Part shown: in pieces, positions 16,663 through 63,614 of the stretch
Numbering within the stretch: position 1 is the stretch's first letter
Layout: each line of letters begins with the position of its first letter
Assembly (NCBI RefSeq): GCF_002886185.1
Contig: NZ_KZ614146.1
Location: 2,526,930 to 2,590,929 of the forward strand
Origin: Salipaludibacillus neizhouensis
GTDB taxonomy: Bacteria; Bacillota; Bacilli; Bacillales; Salisediminibacteriaceae
Direction of reading: 5' to 3'
DNA length: 64,000 nt
Notes under the pieces: model-generated
Seen by the model: only the letters and a program-made list of their open reading frames with translations
Database searches by the model: none
What the model was told of the DNA's origin: nothing
Made by a program: the position numbers and the translations under genes

Positions 16663-16793
16663 ATAAGAAAAACGCAAAGCGTCTTTTATTAAATACAGCG
16701 TGATCTTTAAAGCCACCATCATTTAAGCATCAAGGGCGAACTTCCCTTGATGCTTGTGGCGTAAAGATAGCTGTCAACTTATAAATTCTTATC
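16663..16793 (+). repeat. Structured repeat, copy 1 (short form)
   Basis: About 131 bp starting ATAAGAAAAACGC and ending TTCTTAT, which forms short terminal inverted repeats. 5' hairpin ACGC-AAA-GCGT, then TTTTATTAAATACAGC, a long-range stem (CAGC, ATCTTT and GCCAC pairing with GTGGC, AAAGAT and GCTG), and an inner hairpin AAGCATCAAGGG/CCCTTGATGCTT. It abuts the hemW ribosome-binding site and lies in the lepA-hemW intergenic region. It is antisense to that transcript. Confidence 0.85.
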
Positions 16794-16796
16794 TTG

Positions 16797-16945
16797 TAAA
16801 AAACGGCATAGCCGTCTTTTATTAAATACAGCGTCAGCTTCCGCCGCCCCGAGTAGAACCTATGTATTGCGTGTAGGTGCTACTCGAAAGGTAGGATGGG
16901 TTTCCCTTGATACGTGCGGCGTGAAGGTAGCTGCAATCTCTATAC
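16797..16945 (+). repeat. Structured repeat, copy 2 (long form), in tandem with copy 1
   Basis: 5' hairpin ACGGC-ATA-GCCGT (compare ACGC/GCGT in copy 1), then TTTTATTAAATACAGC, stem CTTC-CGCCGC pairing with GCGGCG-T-GAAG, and the long-form inner hairpin CGAGTAGAACCTAT / GTAGGTGCTACTCG, which has mismatches here. The 3' terminal TTCTTAT is missing. Four bases separate it from copy 1. The remaining sequence to 17037 shows nothing else recognisable. Confidence 0.8.
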
Positions 16946-17037
16946 AAACTGTAAACTATTGCTTAAGCTCTTTAAAGGCGAAGAGGGCGTGCCAAAAGGT
17001 CAATAATGTCCTCCTGATACTCCCCTCATCACTTGAG

Positions 17038-18864
17038 TTATTTTTTTTCATCCATACTCAAGACAGACATAAACGCCTCTTGAGGTATTTCAACGTTTCC
17101 TACACTTTTCATTCGTTTCTTACCTTCTTTTTGTTTCTCCAGTAATTTTCTTTTCCGCGAAATATCGCCGCCATAACATTTTGCCAAGACATTTTTACGC
17201 ATTGCTTTGATCGTGGATCTAGCTACTATTTTTTGACCTATACTAGCTTGAATAGGCACTTCAAAATGTTGTCTCGGGATTAAATCCTTTAACTTTTCAA
17301 CAATTGTTTTACCACGATCGTAAGAGCTGTCTCTATGAACGATAATCGATAAAGCATCTACTGTTTCCCCGTTAAGTAAAATATCCATTTTAACCAAGTT
17401 ACCTTCTTTGTAGTCGATTAACTCATAGTCAAAAGAGGCGTATCCTTTTGTACTTGATTTTAACGTATCAAAGAAATCATATACAATTTCCGATAACGGT
17501 AGTTCATAAATAATATTGACGCGGTTCTCATCAAAATATTTCATATCAATATAATCACCGCGTTTTCGTTGGCAAAGCTCCATGACTGCTCCAACATACT
17601 CATTTGGAACCATGACTTCTGCTTTGACATAAGGTTCCTTCACAACCTCAATTTTTGCAGATTCAGGCATGTTAGACGGATTATCAATTCGAATTTCTTC
17701 TCCGTCTGTTTGCGTTACTTTATAAATAACACTAGGAGCTGTAGTTATAAGATCCATATTGAACTCTCGCTCAATTCTTTCTTGAATAATCTCCATATGA
17801 AGAAGACCTAAAAACCCACAACGAAATCCAAAACCTAACGCTTGGGAGGTTTCCGCTTCAAATTGAAGAGCAGCATCGTTCAATTCTAATTTTTCAAGTG
17901 CATCCCTTAACTCATTATAATTGTTCGTATCAACCGGGTACAATCCACAGAACACCATTGGATTTAATTTACGGTATCCCGGCAATGCTTCGGCGGTAGG
18001 GTTACTTGCCGAGGTTACTGTATCACCAACTCTACTATCGCTGACATTTTTAATACCGGCAATCATAAAGCCTACGTCCCCAACAGTCAATTCTTCCCGA
18101 ACAACCGGTTTAGGATTAAATACGCCAATTTCCTGAACTTCAAACTCTTTCTCTGTTTGCATCATTCGGATTCTTTCACCTGGCTTTACTGTTCCTTCCA
18201 TGATTCTTATATAGACGATAACGCCTCTATAGGGATCATAAAGCGAATCAAATATCATAGCCTTTAACGGTGCCTCAGGATCGCCATCAGGTGCAGGTAC
18301 GTTTTTGACAACCGATTCCAATATCTCTTCAATACCAATTCCACTTTTAGCCGATGCTAACACACAGTCCTCTTTCTGCAACCCTATAACATCTTCCACT
18401 TCCTGCATCACACGCTCTGGTTCAGCACTAGGAAGATCAATTTTATTTATCACAGGAATTATTTCTAATTCATTATCAAGTGCTAAATAAACGTTAGCTA
18501 ATGTCTGTGCTTCAATTCCTTGTGCTGCATCTACAATAAGCAAAGCTCCTTCACAGGCAGCTAAACTCCGGGAGACCTCATAAGCAAAGTCGACATGTCC
18601 CGGTGTATCAATTAAATGGAATATGTATTCTTCCCCGTCATTTGCAGTATAAGTTAACTGAACTGCGTTTAACTTTATGGTAATTCCCCGTTCTCTTTCT
18701 AAATCCATCGCATCCAGCATTTGATCCTTCATCTCACGTTGAGTGAGCGCACTAGTTTTTTCTAATATGCGGTCAGCAAGTGTTGATTTCCCATGATCAA
18801 TGTGGGCAATAATTGAAAAATTCCGGATCTTATCTCTTCTTTTTATACGATCTACAGGTTTCAT
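17038..18864 (-). CDS. lepA: Elongation factor 4 (LepA)
   Basis: Ribosome-associated translational GTPase (608 residues) that acts on the elongating or initiating ribosome. G1 AHIDHGKS, G2 RERGIT, G3 DTPGHVDF, G4 NKIDLP, then EF-G-like domains and the LepA-specific C-terminus ([36 protein letters not shown]). The start at 18864 has TAGGAG upstream; the frame could extend to 18891 but without a ribosome-binding site. It is upstream of hemW on the same strand and downstream of yqxA. Confidence 0.97.
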
Positions 18865-18971
18865 TGCATCATCACTCCTACAAAACTCCATTCCAAAAGA
18901 GGGTTATGTCTCCTCTTTAAATCATACTACTAAGTATTATAGCAATAATAGAAGCAATCCTACAAATACAT

Positions 18972-19376
18972 TTATTCTACTGTTCGAAACAGACCTTGAA
19001 ATACACTCTCGAACATACCCGATGTTCTCTCCCCCATTTCCGAAAAAAGGAGGCTACTTTCTTCCCCTCCATACGTTGAGGATTCGTGCGTTATTTTTTG
19101 ATGGAATTCTTCGTCCCCACCTTCACCATCATACACAACTATCCCATTATCATCTTCCATGTCAATAATATTTGACTCTTTTTCTTTTAGAGTAAATAAA
19201 GGTTCATCTTCCTTTTCAGCATTCGGATTTTGAACATTCTCCACTTCTTCTTCCTCAATTACCTCAAAGTTTGATTGATAAAGAGCCAGTCCTTCATTCT
19301 GATATATAATCCCCAAAATAAAACCAAACATAAGGATAGAAAGCAACATACACATCCTTACGAATAAATGACCCAT
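18972..19376 (-). CDS. yqxA: YqxA family (DUF3679) sporulation-region protein
   Basis: Small protein of about 134 residues with one N-terminal membrane segment (about 6-26, RMCMLLSILMFGFILGIIY) and an acidic, poorly conserved body. Its position between spoIIP and lepA matches yqxA of B. subtilis, and the N-terminal YQNEGL pattern agrees with that family. Function unknown. The start ATG at 19376 lies 8 bases after GAGGAGGG; the GTG just before it is too close. A gap of 15 bases after spoIIP indicates co-transcription in gpr/spoIIP-yqxA. Confidence 0.8.
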   Translation of the reverse strand: MGHLFVRMCMLLSILMFGFILGIIYQNEGLALYQSNFEVIEEEEVENVQNPNAEKEDEPLFTLKEKESNIIDMEDDNGIVVYDGEGGDEEFHQKITHESSTYGGEESSLLFSEMGERTSGMFESVFQGLFRTVE

Positions 19377-19391
19377 CACGGATCCCTCCTC

Positions 19392-20570
19392 TCATTCCTC
19401 GGATTCTTGATTCTCCCAATAATATTCGCTGAATACTTTCGCAAATAATTCAATCGAACGGTATACTTCTTCTAATGAGTTTTCTACCCCTCCAAATTCA
19501 ACAAGCATAGCTTGATTGGACAGGTCCTGATTATAGACACCATTTTTTCCGCCTCCGGTTGTATTTGGTGCAAAAATCCCTCGACTTAATCCATAATGCT
19601 GGTCTTGGAGTCGTTTGTGTAATTCATTTGCTAATGCTTCATTCTCCTGATAATTGGGGTTATTTTCTCCAATTACAAACAAAGTTTTAGCATAAGATTC
19701 GCCATTCATTTCCACTGTTGTCACTTCTTTTGGCTGGGAATCACGGTGCAAGTCAAAATAAAATTGTAGATCGTCATTTTTTTCCGACGCTTCTTGTACT
19801 ATTTCCCGGGACATATCGTAGGATTGACTATAATCCCATTGGCGTGCATTTAATTCCTCACCTATATCCGTAGTATCAACTTCTGCTCCGATTCCGTATT
19901 TTGCAAGCTCCAGTCCTAACCGCTCACCTACCAGTGTAATATTGACACTTTCGTGCAGTGCTTCCTTCGAGTTTTGTAGCTCGGGAAGGTAAGATTCTCT
20001 GTTATGTGTGTGAACAATATGTACAGTGACTGGTAATTCTTCCTTGTTCTCTTCGGAAAATGTTTGTTTCAATTCATCAAGCTCTTCAATTCGCTCGGTC
20101 GATGCTTCTCGTTCTGCTAATAAAACTTCCATCGGTGGTGCAGATTCAATCGGCATATTTGTATAATCAGAACCTTCTCCAGCGGTAAGTATTTTGCCGT
20201 CAAATAGTGAAAATCCCGGTAACTCTCTTCCAAGCAGACTTCGAGGATCATCTGGATCTAAATTTGTTGCTATCTCAAACAAAACAGGTGCCACAGAAGG
20301 TTCTTCATATCCATCCGGCAAGCTTTGCTGTAAATACCTATTTTCTTTTCCCATTACAGACACAAGATCTTCAGCAGAAAAAAGGTGACTCACTTCATGA
20401 ATTGATGCAGAGGTAAGGCTGTAACCCGGACCCAAAGTCGTTAGTGTTGCTGTTAAGAAAAAGATAGTGATAACTCCGAAAATAAAGGATAGCAACTTTT
20501 TATGAGGGCTTGTCCTTTTCGACCCTATAAGCCTTCTGTTATTTTTATTTAAATGTTTAGCTGCCAACAT
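19392..20570 (-). CDS. spoIIP: Stage II sporulation protein P (peptidoglycan amidase/endopeptidase)
   Basis: SpoIIP hydrolyses septal peptidoglycan during engulfment, in complex with SpoIID and SpoIIM. About 392 residues with an N-terminal membrane anchor (about 25-50) and the SpoIIP catalytic domain: VHIVHTHNRESYLPE and DLHRDSQP carry the metal-binding residues, and LVEFGGVENSLEEVYRSIE is near the C-terminus. The ATG at 20570 is preceded by GAGAGGGTGAGA; an in-frame ATG at 20585 would have a ribosome-binding site only a few bases away. It lies between gpr and yqxA as in B. subtilis. Confidence 0.95.
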   Translation of the reverse strand: MLAAKHLNKNNRRLIGSKRTSPHKKLLSFIFGVITIFFLTATLTTLGPGYSLTSASIHEVSHLFSAEDLVSVMGKENRYLQQSLPDGYEEPSVAPVLFEIATNLDPDDPRSLLGRELPGFSLFDGKILTAGEGSDYTNMPIESAPPMEVLLAEREASTERIEELDELKQTFSEENKEELPVTVHIVHTHNRESYLPELQNSKEALHESVNITLVGERLGLELAKYGIGAEVDTTDIGEELNARQWDYSQSYDMSREIVQEASEKNDDLQFYFDLHRDSQPKEVTTVEMNGESYAKTLFVIGENNPNYQENEALANELHKRLQDQHYGLSRGIFAPNTTGGGKNGVYNQDLSNQAMLVEFGGVENSLEEVYRSIELFAKVFSEYYWENQESEE

Positions 20571-20635
20571 TCTCACCCTCTCCATCCCCGTATAACAAAT
20601 CTATATGAAGGAAGAGAGGATATAGAACGTTGAAT

Positions 20636-21760
20636 TTATCGTGTGTATGCTCCTACATTTTTTTGGTCTACATCTCCATGTAAAGCAGCATTTAAACTTT
20701 GAGCAATTAGGTGGGCCATATCTTTTATGAAATCATCTACTTCTTTAGGAGTTACCATAAGATTTTGCCCTAACGGTGACAGAACCTCTGCTATGAGTTG
20801 TCGCTTTTCTTGCTCTTCCAATCCCCCAACTACCCCTAAATAGAGCTCTTTTTCCTTGTCACCTGGTAAGTCCTCATCGGTTAGTTTTCTCTTTTCTCCG
20901 AATGTCATTCCAGCAGGAGCTAACCTTCCTTTTGGTCCTTGAGGATCCCGAATTTCTTTTCCAAAATGCTTTAAAATATAATCAATCGTATCACTAGTGA
21001 TTGAAACAGCATCTACAACAGTAGGTACTCCAATCGCGATAACCGGAATCCCAAGAACTTCTTCGGATAATTCTTTCCGTTTATTACCAACCCCTGAGCC
21101 TGGATGTATCCCTGTATTTGAAACTTGTATGGTTGTATTCACTCTTTCAATAGAACGCGATGCCAGGGCGTCAACAGCAATGATAAAATCGGGTTTCACT
21201 TTTTCAACAACACCCATAATAATATCACTCGTCTCAATTCCAGTAAGTCCCATGACACCTGGGGTCAGTGCACTTACTTCACGAAAACCTTCCTGGACAT
21301 TTTCTGGCTGCAACTGGAATAAATGTTTGGTAATTAACAAATTATCAGTAACCATCGGCCCTAAAGCATCTGGTGTTACATTCCAATTTCCTAATCCTAC
21401 TATTAAACAAGAATCTTCCTTTCCTACCCCTACAGAATCTAAAAAGTGACTAAATTCTCTTGCAAAAACATTTTCCGCTTTGGCTTGAAGTTCAGTATCT
21501 TTTTCCCGTATTCCTTCAATGTAAAGTGTTAAATACTGTCCTGCTTTTTTGCCGATAGCGTCCACTGCACTATCCTCAATGGTTACGTAAGTAATATCAA
21601 TTCCTTCCTCATTTTTCTCAGAAACACTTACTCCCTGTAATGATGATGGAGAGTCTGTGTCCTTTTCTTTTACAATGCCCTCTCTTTGTTTTGCAAGATC
21701 ATGTGCTTCTACAGCCAGGTCGGTTCTGACCTGAAATTTCGTTAAATCCAATTCTTCCAT
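20636..21760 (-). CDS. gpr: Spore germination protease GPR
   Basis: Aspartate-type protease (peptidase family A25) that degrades small acid-soluble spore proteins on germination. It is made as a zymogen: the N-terminal propeptide ([20 protein letters not shown]) is removed autocatalytically, usually just before [12 protein letters not shown], which is present at about 55-66. 374 residues, standard length; [15 protein letters not shown] and [16 protein letters not shown] match the family. GAGGAAG precedes the start. Expression is expected in the forespore; I do not call the promoter. Confidence 0.96.
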
Positions 21761-21815
21761 CTTTCACACTTCCTCTCTTTTCTCCATCTTCACAAACCAT
21801 TGATGGAAAATGTTA

Positions 21816-21844
21816 TTGCATTTTAAAAAAGCTTTTGGTACAAT
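21816..21844 (+). promoter_or_regulatory. Sigma-A promoter of rpsT
   Basis: TTGCAT, 17-base spacer, TACAAT, then about 50 bases of leader to the rpsT start. Strong match. Confidence 0.85.
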
Positions 21845-21897
21845 CCATAGTGTTGCACACAAAACAAAACGTTATTACTGTCTAGGGGGTGAATAAG

Positions 21898-22164
21898 ATG
21901 GCAAACATTAAATCTGCTGTCAAACGTGTCCAAACAAATGAGAAGCGTCGCGCTCAAAATGCTGCATTTAAATCAGACCTTCGTACGGCAATTAAAATTT
22001 TCAATACAAAAGCTGATCAAAAAGATGTAGATGGTTCTAAACAAGCATTCCTATCTGCTACTAAGAAAATTGATAAAGCTGCAAATAAAGGAATCTTCCA
22101 TAAAAACGTAGCGAACCGTCAAAAGTCTCGCTTACAACAGCGTTTAAACGAAATTTCTGCTTAA
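21898..22164 (+). CDS. rpsT: 30S ribosomal protein S20
   Basis: Primary 16S rRNA-binding protein bS20, 88 residues, helical and lysine-rich (MANIKSAVKRVQTNEKRR, DKAANKGIFHKNVANRQKSRL). The GTG nine bases earlier in frame falls in the Shine-Dalgarno GGGGGTGA, so the ATG at 21898 is the start. It is monocistronic with its own promoter and terminator and stands opposite in strand to gpr and holA, as in B. subtilis. Confidence 0.98.
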   Translation: MANIKSAVKRVQTNEKRRAQNAAFKSDLRTAIKIFNTKADQKDVDGSKQAFLSATKKIDKAANKGIFHKNVANRQKSRLQQRLNEISA

Positions 22165-22166
22165 TA

Positions 22167-22211
22167 AAAAAAACCAAGTTACAGGGATTTCCCGAACTTG
22201 GTTTTTTTTAT
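22167..22211. terminator. Bidirectional terminator rpsT / holA
   Basis: AAAAAACCAAGTT pairs with AACTTGGTTTTTTT around a 14-base loop; T-runs on both strands and both genes converge on it. Confidence 0.93.
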
Positions 22212-22214
22212 GGG

Positions 22215-23252
22215 TTATTTTCCGATTCTGATTTTAGTTCCCCTTTGTATCAAGAATAACTCTACCCCTAAAGCATCATTCATTTTTCCTGTTTTAATCC
22301 GAAAATCAAGTTCAGCAAGCTGGTCTAAGTAAGACAGTAATTCTTCATCCTTAAATCTTTGCACTTGCTTTAATGCTAATTTAACAACATACGGATGAAG
22401 TTTAAGCTGGGAGGCGATCATTTTCTCCCCGTAACCCTGCTGTGACAACTGCTTCACCTGATATAATATCCGAAATTGACGAACCATCATTGCAAGTATT
22501 CGTAAAGGTGGTTCTTTTTGTTTAATTAAATCCTTGAATATTTTCAGCGATTGATGAGCTTGACCTTTCACTACGCCATCAACTAAAACAAAAATATCTT
22601 GCTCTAGTGACCGGACTACTAGCGAAGATACATGTTCCTTAAGTACTTCGTTGTTTTCTCCGACATGTAAAGCCAATTTTTTTATTTCAGAAGCCATTTG
22701 CATTAAATTGGCAGCTGTTAATGTTATCAGTTCTTGCTCAGCACCTTCGTTAAACACTACTTTTTCTTCTTTCGCTTTCGATTGAATCCATTGTCGCAAT
22801 TCTTTTTCAACCAGAGGACGGGCCTCCATAACCGTTGCTTGTTTTTTCATTAATTTTACTATTTTTTTTCTGTCATCTAATTTTTCGTAAGGAGCTAGCA
22901 CAATTAATACAGTTTCTGGTGCCGGTTTTTCTATGTAGCTTACTAATTTGGTTAAATCATGTTCGACTTTTTTAGGATCTTTTTGGCCAGAAAAAAAGAT
23001 GGCATCTTTAATTAGTACGACTCTTCTTTCCCCCATAAAAGGGAATGTATATGCTTCTTCCACTGCAATTTCCACAGGATTTTCAGCCATATCGAACTTT
23101 GATAAATTAAAATCCTGCTCTTCTGCAGAGAGCCCTTTTGAAATAATACGATGCAACATGTCTTCAAGTAAGTAAGTTTCCGTTCCGTATAATAAATATA
23201 AAGGAGCTAACTCCCCTTTATTTAATTCTTGCAATACTTTTACATAGGACAA
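22215..23252 (-). CDS. holA: DNA polymerase III subunit delta (HolA)
   Basis: Clamp-loader delta subunit that opens the beta sliding clamp. 345 residues: N-terminal ATPase-like domain lacking a functional P-loop (APLYLLYGTETYLLE, MGERRVVLIKDAIFF), clamp-binding element, and C-terminal collar domain (PPLRILAMMVRQFRIL, LAELDFRIKTGKMNDALGVELFL). The open frame begins at 23276, but AAGGAGGAGGAGG lies inside it, so translation most likely begins at the TTG at 23252. Ends at the shared terminator with rpsT. Confidence 0.93.
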   Translation of the reverse strand: MSYVKVLQELNKGELAPLYLLYGTETYLLEDMLHRIISKGLSAEEQDFNLSKFDMAENPVEIAVEEAYTFPFMGERRVVLIKDAIFFSGQKDPKKVEHDLTKLVSYIEKPAPETVLIVLAPYEKLDDRKKIVKLMKKQATVMEARPLVEKELRQWIQSKAKEEKVVFNEGAEQELITLTAANLMQMASEIKKLALHVGENNEVLKEHVSSLVVRSLEQDIFVLVDGVVKGQAHQSLKIFKDLIKQKEPPLRILAMMVRQFRILYQVKQLSQQGYGEKMIASQLKLHPYVVKLALKQVQRFKDEELLSYLDQLAELDFRIKTGKMNDALGVELFLIQRGTKIRIGK

Positions 23253-23311
23253 GACTTCCTCCTCCTCCTTCACCATCTCAAGTTTACCATAGCTTTAGGA
23301 GAATAGAAAAA

Positions 23312-23338
23312 GGGAAACGCCTGTCTCAGGCGTTTCCC
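23312..23338 (-). terminator. Hairpin GGGAAACGCCTG / CAGGCGTTTCCC
   Basis: Perfect 12-base arms with a TCT loop, followed on the minus strand by a T-rich tract. It ends a minus-strand transcript arriving from above 23340, which implies a transcript over 23341-23523. Confidence 0.85.
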
Positions 23339-23340
23339 AT

Positions 23341-23490
23341 TTATGATAAACGCCACCCTAAAAAAGACCTAGGTTCCTTCCGGGGACGATAATCAATCTT
23401 GTAGTCATATGTTATCCTATGTCTCGTTAATATATAGGTGACAGCACTTAGGAAATAGAGCCAATTTATATTAAATGTACCAGTCTGCAT
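23341..23490 (-). CDS. Possible small protein of unknown function
   Basis: A short frame (49 residues from the ATG at 23490; the open frame reaches 23523) with a hydrophobic segment INWLYFLSAVTYIL and a basic tail YRPRKEPRSFLGWRLS. I do not recognise it. The support is the strong terminator beginning 3 bases after its stop on the same strand. No good ribosome-binding site is seen, so it may instead be an RNA or chance frame. Confidence 0.3.
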   Translation of the reverse strand: MQTGTFNINWLYFLSAVTYILTRHRITYDYKIDYRPRKEPRSFLGWRLS

Positions 23491-23566
23491 GTTCTTTTTA
23501 ATAAATAATTTAGAGGAAATCAATTCACAAAAATTTTTTCTTCTACATGCTTAAGTATGGATTTTT

Positions 23567-23631
23567 CCAGCGAAATGACTTATACTAAAATAAGCATATG
23601 CACCTTGATTTTGGATCACACATTTCGCTGG
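23567..23631. repeat. Inverted repeat CCAGCGAAATG / CATTTCGCTGG upstream of yqzM
   Basis: Eleven-base perfect arms separated by 43 bases; inside are a small CTTAT-N6-ATAAG hairpin and TTGATTTTGGATCA. It lies in the 5' region of yqzM. It could be a leader structure or an operator pair. Not recognised. Confidence 0.5.
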
Positions 23632-23713
23632 TGAAAAGGCGCTCGAGCTAGTCGGTGTAAGAAACAGATTTGTACTTTCTTACCTTTCTAAAAAGCAACA
23701 GGAGGGATGCAAA

Positions 23714-23845
23714 ATGAACGAATTTGAAAAGGATGTTCAATCAAATCGCAATGATGCTATTGATAGCGGTATTGGATTTGTTGTAGTATTTGGTTTTTTT
23801 ATGACCATTTTCGCTATTGCACAAGTAATCGATCTCCTATTTTAA
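23714..23845 (+). CDS. yqzM: YqzM family small membrane protein
   Basis: A 43-residue protein: MNEFEKDVQSNRNDAIDSG followed by a single hydrophobic segment GFVVVFGFFMTIFAIAQVI and a short tail. This is the YqzM pattern seen beside comEC in Bacillus. Function unknown. AGGAGGG precedes the ATG by 6 bases, and a terminator follows at 23861-23900. It lies between holA and comEC and is transcribed opposite to both. Confidence 0.88.
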   Translation: MNEFEKDVQSNRNDAIDSGIGFVVVFGFFMTIFAIAQVIDLLF

Positions 23846-23860
23846 ATGATGGTACTACAT

Positions 23861-23900
23861 AAATAACACGCTTCCTTTAGACTTGGAAGCGTGTTTATTT
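23861..23900 (+). terminator. Terminator of yqzM
   Basis: AATAACACGCTTCC / GGAAGCGTGTTTATT with a 9-base loop and T-rich tail, 15 bases after the yqzM stop. Confidence 0.88.
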
Positions 23901-23904
23901 CTTT

Positions 23905-24031
23905 AATGAAAACGCGTAGCGTCTTTTATTAAATACAGCGTGATCTTTCGCCACCATCACTTAAGTGTCAAGGGTGGGTTTCCCTTTACACTTGTGGCGT
24001 AAAGATAGCTGCTAATTTTATAAATTCTTAT
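23905..24031 (+). repeat. Structured repeat, copy 3 (short form)
   Basis: 5' hairpin ACGC-GTA-GCGT, then TTTTATTAAATACAGC, stem CTTTCGCCAC / GTGGCG-T-AAAG, inner hairpin AAGTGTCAAGGG/CCCTTTACACTT, and TTCTTAT end. It lies 31 bases beyond the comEC stop, in the opposite sense to comEC. It forms a direct-repeat pair with copy 4 around comEC. Confidence 0.85.
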
Positions 24032-24062
24032 TTCTTTTTAAAAAACATTAATTTACAGTTAA

Positions 24063-26360
24063 TCACGGTAGAAATGGCGTTACATTTATAATCCCGTTAT
24101 TTATTTTTATCACAATAGCCCCTTGCTTATCTGTTCGAAATACCTTCGTTTTATGGCTCGCAAATCTTTCCAATACTTCCGCACTAGGGTGACCATGACG
24201 ATTATTTTCACCAGCAGAAATAAAGCCATATGCTGGTTTTAATTGGCTTAGTAAAGCTTCCCCCGAAGAAGTATTGCTTCCATGATGTGAAACTTTCAAG
24301 AGATCTACCGTTATGTCAGGGTAATTCTCAAGTAGCTCTGTTTCTCCATCTTCTTCCAAGTCTCCTTCAAACAACATCGTTCTTCCAGCTAAAACTGCGT
24401 ATACAACGATAGACCTTTCGTTTTCATTTTCCGTATTCTCTGTTCCTGATGGATGAAAAATATAAAATGAGTTTTTCCCAACACTCCAATTCATCCCTTT
24501 TTCGGCCAAAGTAATCTCGACTTTATCATTAAATAAACATTCCAGACTTCCTCTACCTTCTTCTGATATCGGAGTACCTTTAGGATATAACGCCTCCTTA
24601 ATCAAAAATTTTTCAGATACATAACACGTTTCACCGATGTGGTCTAAATGGCCATGAGACATAATAAGTAAATCAATTTCTTTAATTCCTTTAGCCTTTA
24701 AAAAAGGTTCAATAACATAGGCACCAGGTCCTTTAGGGCTTACCGACTCATCTTGTTCTCCCCAGTGTACAACTCCGCCTGTATCGATGAGATAGACCGC
24801 TTCTCGATGGGGTAATTCCACGACAATGGCATCACCTTGTCCTACATCTAACATCGTTACGGTTATATCCTCATTCATATAAGGCATGAGAAACTGAATG
24901 ATAAATGGCAGCAACATGATTGTCCCCCCCAATACCCGTATAAATGTTTGTTTTTTTTCAATAAGAACCATGCCAATAAAAATACTAATATACATACTCC
25001 ATAGCATCCATTCTGGTGGTTTTCCTAAAGCAATAACACTCCATGAGAGAGTTGATACAAAGTCCAATACAAGTTGAATGAGATGGGTACTGATGGAGAG
25101 AAGGTTATAAGTAACTAGAGCTAAAGGAGGAATCACAGCATCTAAGATTACCGTAATAAACGATAGCGGTAAAATCCACATAGAAATAAACGGAATAAAC
25201 ACTAAATTAGCAGGAATAGTTAATACCGAAAAGTCAAAAGAGTGATAAAGAAATAGGGGCATGGAAATAATTTGAGCGGTAACCGTCACTTTAAATAATA
25301 ACGTTATCGGAGAAGTCTCGTTGAATACTTTGCTAGACAGCAATAAACCAAAACTCGTCAAAAAGGACAACTGGAAACCTAAATGATACAAGTAAAATGG
25401 ATCGATAATAAGAAGAACGAGACAGACAAACGAAATCACATCGATTCCCTTGAGATTTATTCGATATCTAGTGATGACTAAAAATAGCATACACATGAAT
25501 GAAGCACGCACGACGGAGGGAGCACCACCAGCAACAAATATGTAAAAAGGAAGAAAAAAGAACACGATTAAGGAAGCTTTTTCTTTCGTTAAACCTATTC
25601 GCAAAAGTATATTGAAAATAAAAGCTGTTACAATCCCCACATGTAAACCAGATACAGCTAGCAAATGCAATACTCCTAATTGTCGAAACTGTTCCAATCT
25701 TTCTTCATTCATGTACGATCTTTCACCAAAAACAAGGGCTGATATCAATGCAGAAGTTTCCAAATCATCTTTTTGGACTATCTTATGCACTGCTTTGCTC
25801 CGACCAGAATCCAACCATTTTAATAAACCTTCCCCTGCGTCACATACAAGGGTATTCTCATTTACTGTCATTCTCCAGTGGATATGTTGTTCGTATAAAT
25901 ATTTTTTATAATTAAAGGTATAGGGGTTTTTAGAGGGAGGAGGAATCTCTAGCTCACCGGTGAAATTGCAGTAGTCATACTTATTGGGGATTGTTTCTAA
26001 ATCATTTTCTTGCCTGTAAGAAAGTAAGATTTTCTCTCCGTTATCTAACAATACTTGGAATGAGTATCCTCCTGATGTTGATTGTTTTACATTGGAGACT
26101 ATCTTGCCTTTGAAATTTGCTTCTTCACCTGTCAGTCTCGTTGACATGGTTTCTAGATGGTAAAGTCCATATAAATAAAATATACTCAAAACCAGTACAG
26201 ATACTACTGCACTTAGAAAGTTTTTTCTTTTCACACCATACACTACAAATGGAAAACAGCCCAACACCAAAAAACCTGCTGACCAAAGATTCCACCCATC
26301 AAACGCTAACAGTAATCCTGAGATCGCAAAAAACATAAAACAATAACTACGAGAAAACAT
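24063..26360 (-). CDS. comEC: DNA internalization competence protein ComEC/Rec2
   Basis: Membrane channel for uptake of single-stranded DNA during transformation. 765 residues: N-terminal membrane segments with a DUF4131/OB-like insertion (about 90-160), the Competence core (GLHVGIVTAFIFNILLRIGL, APSVVRASFMCM), and a C-terminal metallo-beta-lactamase domain (GQGDAIVVELP, MSHGHLDHIGE, VSHHGSNTSSGE). GGGGGGAGCC precedes the ATG at 26360. The longer frame reaching 26453 runs into repeat copy 4 and gives a false N-terminus. Flanked by repeat copies 3 and 4 in the same orientation. It is uncoupled from comEB by a gap of almost 480 bases. Confidence 0.94.
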   Translation of the reverse strand: MFSRSYCFMFFAISGLLLAFDGWNLWSAGFLVLGCFPFVVYGVKRKNFLSAVVSVLVLSIFYLYGLYHLETMSTRLTGEEANFKGKIVSNVKQSTSGGYSFQVLLDNGEKILLSYRQENDLETIPNKYDYCNFTGELEIPPPSKNPYTFNYKKYLYEQHIHWRMTVNENTLVCDAGEGLLKWLDSGRSKAVHKIVQKDDLETSALISALVFGERSYMNEERLEQFRQLGVLHLLAVSGLHVGIVTAFIFNILLRIGLTKEKASLIVFFFLPFYIFVAGGAPSVVRASFMCMLFLVITRYRINLKGIDVISFVCLVLLIIDPFYLYHLGFQLSFLTSFGLLLSSKVFNETSPITLLFKVTVTAQIISMPLFLYHSFDFSVLTIPANLVFIPFISMWILPLSFITVILDAVIPPLALVTYNLLSISTHLIQLVLDFVSTLSWSVIALGKPPEWMLWSMYISIFIGMVLIEKKQTFIRVLGGTIMLLPFIIQFLMPYMNEDITVTMLDVGQGDAIVVELPHREAVYLIDTGGVVHWGEQDESVSPKGPGAYVIEPFLKAKGIKEIDLLIMSHGHLDHIGETCYVSEKFLIKEALYPKGTPISEEGRGSLECLFNDKVEITLAEKGMNWSVGKNSFYIFHPSGTENTENENERSIVVYAVLAGRTMLFEGDLEEDGETELLENYPDITVDLLKVSHHGSNTSSGEALLSQLKPAYGFISAGENNRHGHPSAEVLERFASHKTKVFRTDKQGAIVIKINNGIINVTPFLP

Positions 26361-26384
26361 GGCTCCCCCCTTGTGCTGAACGCA

Positions 26385-26513
26385 ATAAGAAAAACGCAAA
26401 GCGTCTTTTATTAAATACAGCGTCAGCTTCCGCCGCCATCTCTTAAGTATCAAGGGTGGTTTCTCCTTGATACTTGCGGCGAGAAGGTAGCTCCTAATTT
26501 TATAAATTCTTAT
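26385..26513 (+). repeat. Structured repeat, copy 4 (short form)
   Basis: ATAAGAAAAACGC start, 5' hairpin ACGC-AAA-GCGT, TTTTATTAAATACAGC, stem CTTC-CGCCGC / GCGGCG-A-GAAG, inner hairpin AAGTATCAAGG/CCTTGATACTT, TTCTTAT end. It lies 25 bases upstream of comEC, antisense to it, within the comEB-comEC interval. Confidence 0.85.
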
Positions 26514-26781
26514 CTCTTAAAGTTAAAACTGCATAGCAGTATCATGCAAAAACTTAGAGTCTTTAATAGCTATTTTGTTGCGTCTGCCTAGAAGAGCGAG
26601 TTTGAGCACCTCTGTCTAAAGTAAAAGGACAATCTCTAAAAATAATAGAACTATAAGTAGCTTCGAGTTTTATAATATAGATAAGTAAAAATAGGGATTT
26701 TTAAAAACAATGCTGGGGGGATTAGTAAAAGTTGGAAACTGTTGCAGAGGACTTGCGTCATTAGATCATTATAAAGAAGAT
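26514..26781. other. Intergenic region between repeat copy 4 and the comEB terminator
   Basis: About 270 bases with no convincing frame. A GGGGGG at about 26713 resembles a ribosome-binding site but no credible frame follows. I see nothing else. Confidence 0.3.
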
Positions 26782-26822
26782 TGCCTCATGCACAAACTTG
26801 GTATAAATTATGAGACAACCTC
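26782..26822 (-). terminator. Probable terminator after comEB
   Basis: On the minus strand TTGTCTCAT pairs with ATGAGGCAA (one G-U) around a 19-base loop, followed by TCTTCTTTAT. If it works, comEC needs its own promoter here rather than read-through from comEA-comEB. Confidence 0.55.
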
Positions 26823-26838
26823 ATTTAAATAAATTAAC

Positions 26839-27408
26839 TTAAGGAGTTGCTGTAAAAAGTTTATTTGCCTGATCTTTCAATTTTTCAACTTCTGTTGATT
26901 CTACACCATTTTCTTCTAGTTTATTTAATAGATTTGCCGCGAACGTTAATTTCTCCTTTGAATTAACATCCAGAATCATTTCCTCCAGCTCGACCTGTTC
27001 CACTTCCACACCACTCTGTTCAAACATTTCAAGAGCAAATGGATGATTCTTATACTCTTTTGCGTAAATAACTTTTTTAATTCCAGCTTGAATCAAAGAC
27101 TTACAGCAATTCAAACAAGGGAAATGCGTGACATATATTTCCGCACCCTCGGTGGGAACTCCAAACTTCGCACATTGCAAAATTGCATTAATTTCAGCAT
27201 GAACTGTGCGGGCACAATGATCATCGATTAGATAGCAACCATCATCAATACAGTGTTTTCCACCCGATATAGACCCATTATATCCGCCAGCGATCATACG
27301 CTTATCTCTAACAATTGTAGCTCCTACCATCAATCTCGTACACGTACTTCTAAGGGCTAACAAATGACTTTGCGCCATAAAATACTGATCCCATGAAATT
27401 CGATCCAT
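26839..27408 (-). CDS. comEB: ComE operon protein 2 (dCMP deaminase-like)
   Basis: Zinc-dependent deoxycytidylate deaminase family protein (189 residues) encoded in the late competence operon; in B. subtilis it is not essential for DNA uptake. Zinc-binding motifs HAEINAI (about residue 71) and PCLNC (about 98-102) are intact, with an additional CIDDGC / DDHCART segment typical of dCMP deaminases. AGGAGG before the start. The C-terminus has a coiled tail absent from minimal enzymes. Order comEA-comEB-comEC is conserved, but here a terminator-like hairpin separates it from comEC. Confidence 0.93.
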   Translation of the reverse strand: MDRISWDQYFMAQSHLLALRSTCTRLMVGATIVRDKRMIAGGYNGSISGGKHCIDDGCYLIDDHCARTVHAEINAILQCAKFGVPTEGAEIYVTHFPCLNCCKSLIQAGIKKVIYAKEYKNHPFALEMFEQSGVEVEQVELEEMILDVNSKEKLTFAANLLNKLEENGVESTEVEKLKDQANKLFTATP

Positions 27409-42605: not shown

Positions 42606-42648
42606 TTAAGAAAAACACAAAGCGTATTTTATTAAATACAGTGTGTCT
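42606..42648 (+). repeat. Structured repeat, fragment (5' module only)
   Basis: TTAAGAAAAACACAAAGCG, then TATTTTATTAAATACAG: the 5' module with its hairpin damaged (ACAC against GCGT). The 3' half of the family is not recognisable, though TTTTACTA/TAGTAAAA just after forms a local hairpin. It lies upstream of the DHH-CBS fusion gene. Confidence 0.65.
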
Positions 42649-42741
42649 TTTACTAATACAAGATTTGGTAGTAAAATTAAGGTAAGAATTTCTTCCTTAG
42701 CTTCTCATATTAATATTTACTCTTTTTTGGAGGACAAAAAT

Positions 42742-48698: not shown

Positions 48699-48859
48699 AT
48701 AAAAGAAAAACGGCAGAGCCGACTTTTATTATATACAGCGTTATCTTTCGCCACCCCGAGTAGCACCTACGAAGTGCGTGTAGGTGCTACTTGAAAGGAG
48801 GGTGATTTTCCCTTGACACGCGTGGCGTAAAGATAGCTGCTAATTTTATTAATTCTTAT
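48699..48859 (+). repeat. Structured repeat, copy 6 (long form)
   Basis: 5' hairpin CGGC-AGA-GCCG, TTTTATTATATACAGC, stem CTTTCGCCAC / GTGGCG-T-AAAG, long inner hairpin GAGTAGCACCTAC / GTAGGTGCTAC, 3' TTCTTAT. It begins 6 bases after deoD and is in the same sense, so it would be transcribed as the 3' UTR of deoD. Confidence 0.85.
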
Positions 48860-48864
48860 CTCTT

Positions 48865-48988: not shown

Positions 48989-49154
48989 TTCATTTGAGCA
49001 CGTGCCACACTCATTTCCAAGCATCTCTCGTACATTTGAGCACACAACACGTTCATTTCCACTCTTCATCTTTATTTGAGAACGTTTCACACTCATTTCC
49101 ACGCCTCTCGCGCTCATTTGAGCACACAACACGTTCATTTCCACTCCTAATCCA
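48989..49154. repeat. Tandem array, eight units of 20-21 bp
   Basis: Eight direct units, each opening N-(T/A)-CATTT or close to it, alternate between type A (CATTTGAGCACACAACACG-like) and type B (TCATTTCCACTCCTC-like), giving a 42-bp super-period (CATTTGAG at 48991, 49033, 49073 degenerate, 49115; TCATTTCC at 49011, 49053, 49093, 49135). A ninth degenerate unit may begin at 48968. It lies 10 bases from the lplJ stop. Minus-strand frames through it give repetitive GVEMNV-type peptides, which I regard as non-genic. Confidence 0.8.
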
Positions 49155-50213: not shown

Positions 50214-50370
50214 TAAGAAAAACGCAAAGCGTGTTTTATTAAATACAGCTTGATCTTTAAAGCCACCCCGAGTAGCACCTACGTAGTGCGTGTAGGTGCT
50301 ACTCGAAAAGAGGCGAACTTCCCTTGATGCGTGTGGCATAAAGATAGCTGTCAACTTATAATTTCTTCTC
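50214..50370 (+). repeat. Structured repeat, copy 7 (long form)
   Basis: 5' hairpin ACGC-AAA-GCGT, TTTTATTAAATACAGC, stem CTTTAAAGCCAC / GTGGCAT-AAAG, long inner hairpin CGAGTAGCACCTAC / GTAGGTGCTACTCG perfect, 3' end altered to TTTCTTCT. It lies between the mhqO terminator and lplJ, antisense to both genes. Confidence 0.85.
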
Positions 50371-50376
50371 TAAAAA

Positions 50377-54484: not shown

Positions 54485-54800
54485 AAGGAAGCTAATACAC
54501 GGAAAATTGAGAGAGATATAGGAGCAATTTTAAGAAGGTTGTGTGAGATCAAAAATGTAGAAATTATAGAAGCTCATACAATGCCAGATCATATTCACAT
54601 GTTTAGTAAGAATCCCCCCCAAAAAATGTCGGTTTAAATGGGAAAAGTTCGTTAATAATCCATGATAGACATGTAAATATAAAATACAGTCATGGAAACA
54701 GGACTTTTTGGGCAAAAGGATATTACGTGAGTACAGTATGATTGAATCAAAAAACGGTACCGAAATACATTCGAGGGCATTATTTCTCATCATCATTATT
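54485..54800 (+). pseudogene. IS200/IS605 transposase (TnpA) fossil
   Basis: The plus strand encodes ERDIGAILRRLCEIKNVEII then EAHTMPDHIHMF, which carries the HUH metal-binding HIH of Y1 transposases. After a frameshift at a C-run, SSLIIHDRHVNIKY-, GNRTFWAKGYYVSTV- and QKTVPKYIRG-type pieces follow with stops. This is a degraded tnpA of the IS200 type. Flanking IS ends were not identified. Confidence 0.8.
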
Positions 54801-59213: not shown

Positions 59214-59217
59214 TTTT

Positions 59218-59940: not shown

Positions 59941-60009
59941 GCCCCCACATCCCTCCTAAGCGGTCATATCCTATGTATATGCCCAGGAAGGTTTGGCTGT
60001 GTCTGTCTT

Positions 60010-60167
60010 ATAAGAAAAACGGCATAGCCGTCTTTTATTAAATACAGCGTCAGCTTCCACCGCACCGAGTAGCACCTACGTAGTGCGTGTAGGTGCTACT
60101 CGAAAGGAGGGTGGGTTTTCCTTGATACTTGCGGTGTGAAGGTAGCTGCCAATTTTATAAATGCTAA
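60010..60167 (+). repeat. Structured repeat, copy 8 (long form)
   Basis: ATAAGAAAAACGGC start, 5' hairpin ACGGC-ATA-GCCGT, TTTTATTAAATACAGC, stem CTTC-CACCGC / GCGGTG-T-GAAG (a compensated pair relative to copy 2), long inner hairpin CGAGTAGCACCTAC / GTAGGTGCTACTCG, 3' TTTATAAATGCTAAT. It lies between carbonic anhydrase and sigK. Confidence 0.85.
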
Positions 60168-60225
60168 TAAAAATGCTTAAATAACATTTCATTCCTACTA
60201 TGAAATGAAACTGTTAGCAGCTCTA

Positions 60226-60798: not shown

Positions 60799-61083
60799 AA
60801 TAGCTAAATTCCTCCTCGAATTTGTAACAATATAGATTTTTCTTACTATTATAGTCTATGCGTACATAAAGGTCACTTTATATGTACTTATTATTTCACT
60901 CATTTTACTAAAAAAACCACGCTTAGACAACAGGAACAAGATAGATTCCTTAAATAGAGAGTCTCCCTCCATTAAATGAACTCTGATCGCTCGCTGCCGA
61001 CTTTTATTGAACACCCCTCCTTTTTTAGAAGCGAACTCTAAAGAAAGTTCAATTGCTACGACGTGAGTTTACCTGTACTAATA
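60799..61083. other. Divergent intergenic region carbonic anhydrase / aldo-keto reductase
   Basis: No gene or repeat recognised apart from the promoter at its end. Confidence 0.4.
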
Positions 61084-61092
61084 TGGTATAAT
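61084..61092 (+). promoter_or_regulatory. Extended -10 promoter of the aldo-keto reductase
   Basis: TGG-TATAAT, an extended -10 element with no good -35; about 40 bases upstream of the start. Confidence 0.55.
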
Positions 61093-61129
61093 CTTTCATG
61101 AAACTAAATGAACACAGAGGAGCGATTCC

Positions 61130-61954
61130 ATGAATTTTATAACGCTAAATAATCAATTAAAAATGCCACAACTAGGGTTTGGTGTTTGGCAAGTAGACGA
61201 TGAAGCTGCAACCCCTGCTGTTGAGAAAGCGATCGAAGTTGGCTATCGTTCCATTGATACTGCGATGATCTATAAAAATGAGCGTGGCGTAGGCGAAGCA
61301 ATTCGTTTAGCAAATGTACCACGGGAAGAATTGTTTATTACCTCTAAAGTCTGGAATGGAGACCAGGGTTATGAAAATACGCTGAAAGCTTTTGATGAAA
61401 GCTTGGAGCGTCTTGGATTAGAATACTTAGACTTGTATCTCATTCACTGGCCTACACCAGAGTATGACGACTATGTAGATACTTACAAAGCAATGGAGAA
61501 ACTTTATAAAGACGGAAAAGTGAAAGCTATAGGCGTTTGTAATTTTGATATCGAGCATTTACAGAGACTTCTAGATGAGTGTGACGTGACACCAGCAGTA
61601 AACCAGGTAGAATGCCACCCATACCTAGCTCAAAATGAATTAAAAACATTCTGTAAAAAACATGATATCTATTTAGAAGCTTGGAGTCCCTTGATGCAAG
61701 GCGGCGAAGTGTTAAATCACCCGATTGTTCAAGGAATAGCAAGAGATCACGATAAAACAGGGGCACAGGTAATTATTCGTTGGCATTTGCAAAACGATTC
61801 GATCGTCATTCCAAAGTCTGTGACACCATCGCGTATTAAAGAAAACTTTGACGTGTTTGGTTTTGAGCTTTCCGATGACGAGATGGAGATAATCAATAAC
61901 TTAGATCGTGGTGTACGAAATGGTCCAAATCCTAGTGAGATGAACGTAAGATAA
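61130..61954 (+). CDS. Aldo/keto reductase (AKR5 type)
   Basis: NADPH-dependent oxidoreductase, 274 residues, TIM barrel. LGFGVWQVDD, the catalytic Asp-Tyr in SIDTAMIYKNERGVGEAI, Lys in ITSKVWNGD, His in LIHWPTP, and the cofactor segment IVIPKSVTPSRIKENF. Resembles YvgN-type methylglyoxal/aldehyde reductases. GAGGAG precedes the ATG. Own promoter and terminator. Confidence 0.92.
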   Translation: MNFITLNNQLKMPQLGFGVWQVDDEAATPAVEKAIEVGYRSIDTAMIYKNERGVGEAIRLANVPREELFITSKVWNGDQGYENTLKAFDESLERLGLEYLDLYLIHWPTPEYDDYVDTYKAMEKLYKDGKVKAIGVCNFDIEHLQRLLDECDVTPAVNQVECHPYLAQNELKTFCKKHDIYLEAWSPLMQGGEVLNHPIVQGIARDHDKTGAQVIIRWHLQNDSIVIPKSVTPSRIKENFDVFGFELSDDEMEIINNLDRGVRNGPNPSEMNVR

Positions 61955-61961
61955 CGAGCAG

Positions 61962-62007
61962 AAGGTGGTGCCCCATAAAATTAACGTTAATATTATGGGG
62001 CAACCTT
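61962..62007 (+). terminator. Terminator after aldo-keto reductase
   Basis: AAGGTGGTGCCCCATAA pairs with TTATGGGGCA-ACCTT, loop about 16 bases, followed by TTCTTTTT. Confidence 0.85.
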
Positions 62008-62075
62008 TTCTTTTTCATGAAAACAATTTCACACTTTTTCTATTAGAAAAATAGTTTATTTTTTCTAGTTTTCTA

Positions 62076-62104
62076 TTGACGGTTCCCAGTATTTAATTTA
62101 CACT
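62076..62104 (+). promoter_or_regulatory. Promoter of the cysP-cysH leader
   Basis: TTGACG, 17-base spacer, TACACT. It lies about 275 bases upstream of cysP, leaving a long leader. Confidence 0.75.
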
Positions 62105-62110
62105 CTAAAT

Positions 62111-62295
62111 ATTCAAAAAAATATATTTTTTATCAAAAATGAAAAGAACTCTGCATAGTTAATACCTTGGTAAACCAATGATTTGACTGCAATGTCACGG
62201 TACCATTAGCTCTCGTTCTGAAGTATAAGAGATCGATGGAACTTAGAAGTCTCTGGAATAGTCGTCCTCTTTTCAGGAAGAGGTATTTTTATTAT
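62111..62295 (+). promoter_or_regulatory. Leader with transcription-attenuator hairpin
   Basis: Between the promoter and cysP is a leader ending in CCTCTT-TTCAGG-AAGAGG (62266-62283) and TATTTTTATT, a rho-independent terminator placed before the gene. Upstream are ACCTTGGTAAACCAATG and GATCGATGGAAC with GTCGTCC, which faintly recall T-box leaders, but the T-box core is not convincing and no S-box core is visible. It probably controls cysP-cysH in response to a sulfur-related signal. Confidence 0.5.
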
Positions 62296-62378
62296 CATTA
62301 AAACCAAGTAAATCGATATGTTTTATAATATTGATGGTGATTGTCATACTTCATTAGGGTATTAGGGGGGTGTTGGAC

Positions 62379-63461
62379 ATGATATTATCCTATCTTGCTA
62401 TCATTGTTGCACTATTTTTCGCAATGAATATCGGTGCAAGTGGAGCAGCAGCCACAATGGGACCAGCATATGGCAGTGGTGCAATTTCAAGAAAAAAAAG
62501 CGCATTATTGCTTGCTGGTTTCGGAGCATTTCTTGGTGCTGTTGTTGGTGGTGGCGAAGTTGTAAAAACCGTTGGAGAAGGTATCATTCCGTCTGACATT
62601 TTTTCTATCGAAGTAGCTGTTGTCATACTGATTGCTTCGTGTTTAACACTGTTTTTGGCGAATGTTATCGGTATCCCACTCTCTACTAGTGAAGTGACAA
62701 TTGGCGCGATTATTGGCGTCGGTGTCGCCTTCCAAGCACTCTATGTTTCCAATATTCTATTCATTTTATCGTTTTGGCTCATCATTCCTGTCATCGCTTT
62801 TGCTTTATGTTTCATTTTCGGAAAAGTGATAATCAGTGTTGAAAAAAGATGGCCCCAATTGAAAGGAACAGGAAAGTGGAAAAAAATTCTTACCATTGTT
62901 TTAATACTAACAGCATTTATAGAAGCATTTTCCGCTGGAATGAACAATGTCGCTAATGCAATTGGACCTTTAGTTGGTGCAGGATTAATGCAGAGCTCTT
63001 CCGGAATTTGGCTTGGCGGTCTTTTTATTGCTATTGGAGCCATTCTATTGGGTGGAAAAGTTTTAGAGACCAACGGGAAAAAAATTACTTCCTTCTCTCT
63101 TCTTCAGGGTACTGCGGTATCTGGAACTGGTGGAGTATTAGTCATTATTGCATCATTATTTGGAATTCCCGTTCCATTAACACAAGTTACTACTTCAGGA
63201 ATTATTGGTATTGGCTGTTCGGAGAATGGCTTTCAAATTTGGCAAAAGGATGTCATTAAAAAAATAATTAAAGTTTGGGTTGTTTCTCCTGTTTTATCCC
63301 TTGTTGTTTCATTCAGCTTGATACATGTTTTTTTACAACCAAATCCATACATTGTTGTCATCGTATCAGCGATCATTATTGCAACGATTGGAACATTGAG
63401 TTTATATCGATCTGTGAAACTGGAAAGACGAACACTTGAAAATGAGCGAAGTATTTCTTAA
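62379..63461 (+). CDS. cysP: PiT-family anion permease, probable sulfate permease CysP
   Basis: Inorganic phosphate transporter-type protein of 360 residues with about ten membrane segments. Family repeats GANDAAAT-equivalent ASGAAATMGPAYGSGAISRK near the N-terminus and GMNNVANAIGPLVGAG in the middle. PiT-family CysP in Bacillus imports sulfate, and this gene is followed by cysH, so sulfate is the likely substrate. The ATG at 62379 lies 8 bases after GGGGGG; the frame may start earlier with GTG. Its stop codon lies inside structured repeat copy 9. Confidence 0.82.
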   Translation: MILSYLAIIVALFFAMNIGASGAAATMGPAYGSGAISRKKSALLLAGFGAFLGAVVGGGEVVKTVGEGIIPSDIFSIEVAVVILIASCLTLFLANVIGIPLSTSEVTIGAIIGVGVAFQALYVSNILFILSFWLIIPVIAFALCFIFGKVIISVEKRWPQLKGTGKWKKILTIVLILTAFIEAFSAGMNNVANAIGPLVGAGLMQSSSGIWLGGLFIAIGAILLGGKVLETNGKKITSFSLLQGTAVSGTGGVLVIIASLFGIPVPLTQVTTSGIIGIGCSENGFQIWQKDVIKKIIKVWVVSPVLSLVVSFSLIHVFLQPNPYIVVIVSAIIIATIGTLSLYRSVKLERRTLENERSIS

Positions 63462-63614
63462 GAAAAACGCGTAGCGTCTTTTATTAAGAAAAACGGCAGA
63501 GCCGTCATTTTTTAAACACAGCATGGGCTTCCCCGCCATATTGTATCAAGGGGTGAATCACCTTACTCTTGATACAATATGGCGTGAAGGTAGCTCTTAA
63601 ACGTTAACTTTCTT
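63458..63614 (+). repeat. Structured repeat, copy 9, nested 5' modules
   Basis: A partial 5' module (TTAAGAAAAACGC-GTA-GCGTC, TTTTATT) is followed directly by a second start (AAGAAAAACGGC-AGA-GCCGTC) and the rest: TTTTTTAAACACAGC, stem CTTCCCCGCCAT / ATGGCG-T-GAAG, inner hairpin ATTGTATCAAG / CTTGATACAAT, TTCTTA end. One element has apparently inserted at the TTTTATT site of another. The first TAA of TTAAGAA is the cysP stop codon. Confidence 0.85.

Follow-up and report, generated by a model that had tools for sequence, protein, structure and literature searches.

A structured repeat on one strand of the window

The window analysed here is a stretch of 64,000 nucleotides from the genome of Salipaludibacillus neizhouensis (G000, 5.5 Mb in 11 contigs; the window is G000:C1:2526930-2590929), and it harbours a family of structured repeats of 130–165 nt whose distribution, orientation and possible means of spread are considered below. 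A first-pass annotation of this DNA had described eight copies of the repeat and a fragment at 42606, all on the plus strand, and this was borne out by sequence inspection, alignments, nhmmer and covariance models; the copies do carry both the ATAAGAA/TTCTTAT terminal repeat and the compensatory changes that it had named. The repeat occurs in two forms, a short form of about 130 nt and a long form of about 160 nt with an extra palindrome (CGAGTAGCACCTAC...GTAGGTGCTACTCG).

The first two copies form a tandem pair, with a short-form copy bounded by perfect 7-bp terminal repeats (ATAAGAA/TTCTTAT; 16663..16792) followed by a long-form copy with a decayed 3' end (16797..16957). Short-form copies lie at 23904..24035 and 26385..26517, and a 5' fragment comprising only the end, the hairpin and the core block, with a weak full-length score, lies at 42606..42650. 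The long-form copy at 48699..48863 is followed by an A-tract and the hairpin of a terminator facing lplA; that at 50214..50373 lies between lplA and a gene encoding a glyoxalase-domain protein and is followed by an A-tract and a terminator-like hairpin; and a third is present at 60010..60172. Repeat sequence does occur at 63458, where the annotation had placed the last copy, but 63458..63484 holds no more than a detached 5' end with its mini-hairpin, from a second copy, which directly adjoins a divergent short-form copy (63485..63620). All of these features are on the plus strand.

Searching the window for the core with up to three mismatches gave 13 matches against 2.65 expected, a number reached by none of 100 shuffled sequences. 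Every copy was retrieved by nhmmer and the covariance models taken together; model R2 listed seven of the eight copies and the fragment, missing the copy at 16663 that the other searches retrieved, probably due to a 2-base overlap with its tandem neighbour. Three short copies gave better folds than their dinucleotide shuffles, with z values of -6.5 (16663), -4.7 (23905) and -4.0 (26385).

The plus strand of the window is taken throughout as the reference strand, and the strand proposed below to be inserted is its reverse complement. On the reference strand the order of parts is the end TAAGAAAA; a mini-hairpin (ACGC/GCGT or ACGGC/GCCGT, with ACCGC/GCGGT in a second genus); the block TTTTATTA; a long stem (CAGC/GCTG, CTTT/AAAG or CTTC/GAAG, GCCAC/GTGGC and variants); an inner hairpin; and the tail TATAAATTCTTATCT. 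Apart from one mismatch, and with one C bulged alongside, TTTTATTA can pair with the end TAAGAAAA, so this block, previously noted as invariant, may form one side of a terminal stem.

Copy number and distribution among related genomes

With one mismatch allowed, the core had 218 matches in G000 (106 forward and 112 reverse; 0 and 1 for a reversed-pattern control), and covariance model R1 recovered at least 150 full copies. Among 124 complete and distinct copies, 86 were long (> 145 nt) and 38 short. Near-identical copies were rare, as only 12 of 1723 pairs of similar length were at least 95% alike.

R1 was applied to 35 genomes of the family and found many copies in G000 and in one genome of another genus (G011, 50 matches), and one match each in G013 and G022; the remaining 31 genomes, including seven congeners of the host, gave no match. 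G000 was also the sole match in 397 genomes of the order (R1) and 398 of the class (R2), in searches that scored seven candidates per genome under strict filters and may have missed copies. All 27 complete G011 copies examined were short and lacked the long-form palindrome. Element sequences in G011 differ from those in G000 at many positions, paired ones among them, and the family therefore looks old and patchily distributed.

No Rfam family matched the repeat at the gathering cut-off over the whole window, and permissive scans of window positions 16600-27000 and of four copy-bearing loci gave nothing relevant. One short copy compared with phage and plasmid sequences (blastn 'distant' mode, E 0.01) had no match, and R1 gave none in 42 of 80 loci taken from a list of lipoate ligase relatives. 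In that list the proteins nearest to the host lipoate ligase were from Evansella (75%) and Alkalicoccus (72%).

Orientation relative to replication

Insertion with a strand bias linked to replication had been suggested from the window, and genome-wide orientation strongly supports this: in both genomes it is replichore-specific rather than random, and copies mostly point to the origin. In G011 the origin was placed by DnaA at C1:2.953 Mb and the terminus was taken as its antipode (0.72 Mb); copies are on the plus strand from 0.72 Mb to the origin and on the minus strand elsewhere, a rule to which 49 of 50 conform (binomial P 9e-14). In G000 the best DnaA match lies at C2:0.42 Mb and 139 of 163 copies among the places listed follow the rule. 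On C1 there were 61 plus and 6 minus copies above 1.7 Mb, and 13 plus and 46 minus below it, this boundary having been chosen by inspection with no independent terminus; on C2 the counts were 4 plus and 0 minus below 0.42 Mb, and 5 plus and 28 minus above it. The G000 places, 184 in all, are the union of 150 model matches and the first 100 of the 218 pattern matches, and so a subset of all copies; 21 of them, on C3 (5 plus, 11 minus) and C4 (5 plus, 0 minus), could not be placed relative to the origin and were excluded.

Flanking context was analysed in fetched loci that covered 80 of the 126 copies remaining in G000 and 37 of the 50 in G011, with genes called as simple open reading frames of at least 90 amino acids and stems scored by a home-made rule. 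Counting partial copies, 36/38 (G011) and 136/166 (G000) conformed in these loci. The bias persisted between convergent genes, where 51 of 64 copies conformed (38:12 in G000 and 13:1 in G011), and where both flanking genes opposed the element (18 of 24; 17:6 and 1:0 respectively), and gene direction therefore does not account for it. GC skew of the reference strand was negative in 88% of 136 conforming copies in G000 and 92% of 36 in G011. As the reference strand points to the origin, the reverse-complement strand sits on the lagging-strand template.

Target site, ends and junctions

Read as the reverse complement, an insertion consists of host TTTTYTTA, two variable bases, the left end AGATAAGAA and, at the far side, the element's own 3' end TTTTTCTTA. 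The ends compared numbered 130 and 88 in G000 and 28 and 21 in G011, and only copies with the end motif at two or fewer mismatches entered the boundary counts, which inflates the apparent conservation of the ends. Strong stems accompanied 40% of 111 copies on their 3' side (reference strand), whereas the figure was 2% both on the 5' side (n = 183) and at random places (n = 300). An A-tract on the reference strand, that is a T-tract in the reverse complement, was found on the 3' side in 70%, on the 5' side in 14% and at random places in 4%. These stem and T-tract frequencies make the terminator a frequent target, not an exclusive one. Where a gene was called on the T-tract side (200 cases), its end faced the element in 156. 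Insertion into the lagging-strand template, often next to terminators, is a well-supported conclusion.

No target-site duplication accompanies insertion, because the element's own end and the flanking target vary independently: the two 9-mers differed by 2.81 of 9 bases, compared with 2.82 when shuffled (n = 105). The 3' flank was TAAGAAAAA, the element's own start, in 13 of these 105, as happens where a tandem copy begins. A two-base duplication at the left joint was likewise rejected as a general rule; in G000 the two junction bases match those beyond the other end in 12 of 77 non-tandem copies, against 5.9 expected.

One nearly exact empty site was available in a paralogous stretch (L028), which on comparison with the occupied L241 keeps the flanks TATTA/TAAGAAAAAAGG, with two extra bases. 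The MTAN-lplA site occupied by the 48699 copy was compared with one locus in each congener, and all seven have both genes and a terminator-like hairpin and lack the element. Between this copy and lplA the window also carries a tandem array of a 42/82-bp unit (TTCATTTGAGCACGTAACACACTCATTTCCA; 48989-49146).

The right end is complementary to the internal block at 7 of 8 bases by inspection, and the corresponding helix (helix 1) is paired in 94.5% of cells with zero double changes. The left end AGATAAGAA has a stretch complementary to the target but no small hairpin.

Homology between end and target, together with the host flanks kept at the empty site, would suit template switching, in which a lagging-strand polymerase stalls at a terminator hairpin after TTTTYTTA, jumps to TTTTTCTTA elsewhere, copies the element and returns without the involvement of a dedicated transposase. 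Insertion is indeed on the side of the hairpin first met by the nascent lagging strand, the junction bases are irregular and no transposase with matching ends was found. This process should however leave many hybrid and partial copies, and the partial ones (35 of 230 nhmmer matches) are within what decay might give; it also leaves the conserved paired interior unexplained, and we regard it as distinctly unlikely. A broader proposal is that the repeat needs no dedicated transposase and propagates when nascent lagging strands, held up at terminator hairpins, are captured, or else that it uses an undescribed strand-transfer enzyme; each genome would then record fork direction in its intergenic regions. 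This proposal is given limited credence.

The ends could also be read as a site for a tyrosine recombinase that acts on a folded strand, in the manner of integron integrase on attC, with TTCTTA/TAAGAA as inverted arms and a few variable bases between them. If the ends were joined in a circle, these arms would be inverted repeats flanking NNAGA, and the variable bases may be comparable with the coupling bases of Tn916-type elements. The target, however, conserves one arm only, and the core bases of attC (GTT/AAC) are absent from the ends of the element; we consider such an enzyme very unlikely.

Structure and covariation

Structure was assessed in 137 distinct copies (set A4: all 27 from G011 and 110 of the 124 that were complete and distinct in G000). 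Across these, 93.8% of cells were paired and 159 carried double changes, compared with 46.5 in shuffled alignments and 11–25 when the structure was slid; the covariation score reached 0.130, whereas shuffled alignments gave 0.079 and slid structures no more than 0.085. The double changes sit in the mini-hairpin and inner stems. The conservation of structure noted in the window copies is upheld, with cells of paired change well above both controls, but most of these cells, by inspection, separate two or three subfamilies, many being common by descent within them in counts uncorrected for relatedness, and when base pairs rather than cells are counted, those with a double change (eight) do not exceed the slid versions (7–11).

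The annotation had left the substrate as either an RNA or single-stranded DNA. Wobble-type cells of the GT/TG kind (75) and the AC/CA kind (54) were similarly frequent with no strong strand preference, a balance that fits single-stranded DNA at least as well as RNA. This bears on whether the repeat is a functional RNA or chromosomal signal whose orientation is kept by selection instead of arising from insertion bias. The conserved structure and the extreme orientation would be expected of such a signal; the lack of a match in 31 of 35 family genomes (all seven congeners among them), the existence of tandem copies and fragments, and wobble cells without a clear strand preference would not, and we consider it highly improbable.

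Candidate mobilising enzymes

Matches to Y1 transposases numbered seven in G000, consisting of two open RAYT-like frames (in loci L031 and L033) and remnants, and four in G011. A degenerate IS200-type Y1 transposase remnant, split in two and interrupted by stops, lies within the window (54494-54774, plus strand) and a similar remnant is at G000:C1:2996012-2996301. G011 had no match to RVT_1 and none to PF07282 (TnpB) at E 0.001. The suggestion of an IS200/IS605-type element made on first inspection is supported for its strand bias; membership of that family did not follow, as no transposase gene with these ends was present in the searched loci.

A 15-base stretch resembling the 3' end of the element, with two mismatches, lies 99 bases downstream of the RAYT gene in L031. 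It is accompanied by no 5' end, was reported by neither R1 nor nhmmer, and is counted as a decayed remnant or chance match and not as a partner end. An autonomous copy split by a gene was also sought, and no pair of half-copies 0–2.5 kb apart was present in the fetched loci. The RAYT gene in L033 is adjoined by an array of a GTAG-tagged palindrome (GTAGGTGCTAC...GTAGCACCTAC) with a 91-bp unit in 4.7 copies (C2, about 736.7-737.2 kb; L033 609-1039). The arms GTAGCACCTAC/GTAGGTGCTAC are common to this REP-like array and the long-form palindrome, which ties this RAYT to the long form only. Similar tandem arrays of GTAG palindromes with a 91- or 122-bp unit occur in L058 (1064-1467), L267 and L270 (1361-1775). 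Beside the RAYT genes in L095, L098, L099 and L219 the next reading frame resembles, by eye, a single-strand DNA-binding protein and is a candidate for one.

G000 has nine RVT_1 matches, three of them with 474-amino-acid frames. The locus L322 (G000:C2:535048 region) contains a group II intron with a maturase that spans about 1.8 kb, with matches to D1-D4 and the catalytic core. A reverse transcriptase might act on a reverse-complement transcript of the repeat, with its own small hairpin and U-tract, and copy it into the lagging strand after a terminator in the manner of group IIC introns, which share both the terminator and the lagging-template preference (PMC8919778). Two junction bases of untemplated appearance would suit such an enzyme, and G000 does encode the RVT_1 matches, the sole locus examined being the group II intron. 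G011, however, carries 50 copies and no RVT_1 match; no intron matched the element, either at gathering cut-offs over the window or in permissive scans of 16600-27000 and four copy-bearing loci; and an intron is not expected to have an end that copies its target. RNA-mediated spread is accordingly judged unlikely.

A proposed route of insertion and its strength

The copies display directly how many they are and how they are oriented, that terminators are enriched on one side, what their end sequences are, that there is no target-site duplication and that seven congeners give no match. Beyond this, we propose a non-autonomous mobile repeat that is inserted as single-stranded DNA and moved in trans by a Y1 HUH enzyme of the IS200/IS605 or RAYT type, a reading that we hold with roughly even confidence. 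Transfer as single-stranded DNA is by itself probable; that the mobilising enzyme is a Y1 HUH protein is an evenly balanced proposition. Such an enzyme is favoured because Y1 proteins are left in both genomes, G011 has no RVT_1 or TnpB match and the ends partly match those of IS200/IS605.

The mobile strand would be the reverse complement of the reference strand, and the fork would be where it enters: it would join the lagging-strand template, in single-stranded form, just 3' of TTTTYTTA, a motif that T-tracts following terminator hairpins often provide. The element's 3' end TTTTTCTTA would mimic the target and pair with an internal guide-like block TAATAAAA (TTTTATTA on the reference strand), and the left end AGATAAGAA would be complementary to the target itself, these complementary stretches being putative guides. 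The protein that recognises the folded strand, in trans, would most likely be this tyrosine HUH (Y1) enzyme.

Several observations weigh against this proposal. No Y1 gene with element ends was found in 33 Y1 loci (some overlapping, and covering part of the Y1 matches; R1 gave none and nhmmer only matches at E > 2). The two RAYT-like proteins of G000 fall below the NCBIfam cut-off (78.1 and 67.1 bits versus 80), and Y1 matches are present in 22 of the 31 family genomes without the repeat. In helix 1, the outermost terminal stem of five pairs that would contain the guide, no pair has changed on both sides, so terminal stem and guide are argued for by complementarity alone; the left guide, moreover, lacks the small hairpin at whose foot the guide of IS608 lies. 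The orientation rule is broken by 24 of 163 G000 copies, and in the non-conforming copies of the fetched loci the sign of the GC skew is reversed (mean +0.05, n = 30 in G000; +0.10, n = 2 in G011), for which reason they look like genuine exceptions and not unseen inversions. A second empty site (L284, compared with L247) lacks TTTTYTTA, placing that insertion outside the motif. The element there is inserted in a copy of a separate interspersed repeat of about 100 bp (CGCTCTAGGCGGACGCTTTCCGCGGGCAATGCTTCAGCC), which is also found in L001, L013, L247, L261, L272 and L274.

The two bases at the left junction are a further difficulty. Joining by IS200/IS605 enzymes is expected to be exact, and in G000 this expectation is not borne out as these bases are hardly inherited, agreeing in 36% and 43% of 81 copy pairs that are 92–95% alike. 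Four flank positions agreed in 20–36% of the same pairs and nine neighbouring internal positions in 73–99%; in 12 closer pairs the two bases agreed in 67% and 25%. Pair distances were used for this comparison because inheritance by subtype tail was uninformative (n = 54). Both bases are less variable in G011 than in G000. Irregular bases of this kind do not fit simple HUH chemistry. It is the lack of a matching Y1 locus, the presence of Y1 genes elsewhere without the repeat, the unchanged guide stem and these irregular bases that keep our confidence in the full HUH reading at an even level.

The proposal yields sharp predictions on strand, site and end. It unites a choice of target like that of group IIC introns (terminator and lagging template) with a non-coding element that is tiny and has an end mimicking its target. 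If a RAYT does move the repeat, a Gram-positive RAYT gains a substrate other than REP; failing that, spread at stalled lagging strands in the absence of a transposase can be put to the test. The copies could in addition serve as a marker of fork direction that requires sequence only.

Comparison with known systems

No published report of the repeat was found among titles and abstract beginnings, in a search without most subscription papers. Its nearest published kinds are REPIN/RAYT systems, IS200/IS605 derivatives, group IIC introns (for target choice) and bcr1-bcr3. The last of these, from the Bacillus cereus group, are similarly structured, intergenic and like miniature inverted-repeat transposable elements, with a TTTAT motif (PMC6542083 and PMC3446304), and bcr1 is given a length of 147–167 nt (PMC2267715). 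Unlike the present repeat, bcr1-bcr3 are described as confined to the B. cereus group, a separation by description and not by sequence.

Group IIC introns insert directly after rho-independent terminators on the lagging-strand template (PMC8919778), and the repeat resembles them in inserting after terminators on that template (strong stem in 40% of 111 copies). It differs in being about one tenth of their length, in having no intron domain match in the Rfam scans and in the lack of an RVT_1 match in G011.

Like REP/REPIN sequences (PMC3116915), the repeat exists as many structured intergenic copies; RAYT-like genes are present in both genomes, and the long form shares arms with the array beside the RAYT in L033. 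Unlike them, it is not a REP doublet, none of the RAYTs examined is flanked by a complete end of the element, and its short forms, among them all of the complete G011 copies examined, lack the palindrome of the GTAG array.

By comparison with IS200/IS605 elements the repeat is distinguished by having no tnpA found that shares its ends, by its long internal stem and two irregular junction bases, and by the frequent use of a terminator T-tract as target. In those elements a guide lies at the foot of a hairpin, the target flanks the left end and similar bases close the right end (PMC6006769). The repeat is like IS200/IS605 elements (IS608, ISDra2) and their miniature derivatives in its use of the lagging-strand template, its short one-sided target and the lack of target duplication; its right end resembles the target (TTTTTCTTA compared with TTTTYTTA); and it may share, at the right end, a subterminal hairpin with a complementary stretch at the foot (PMC6006769).

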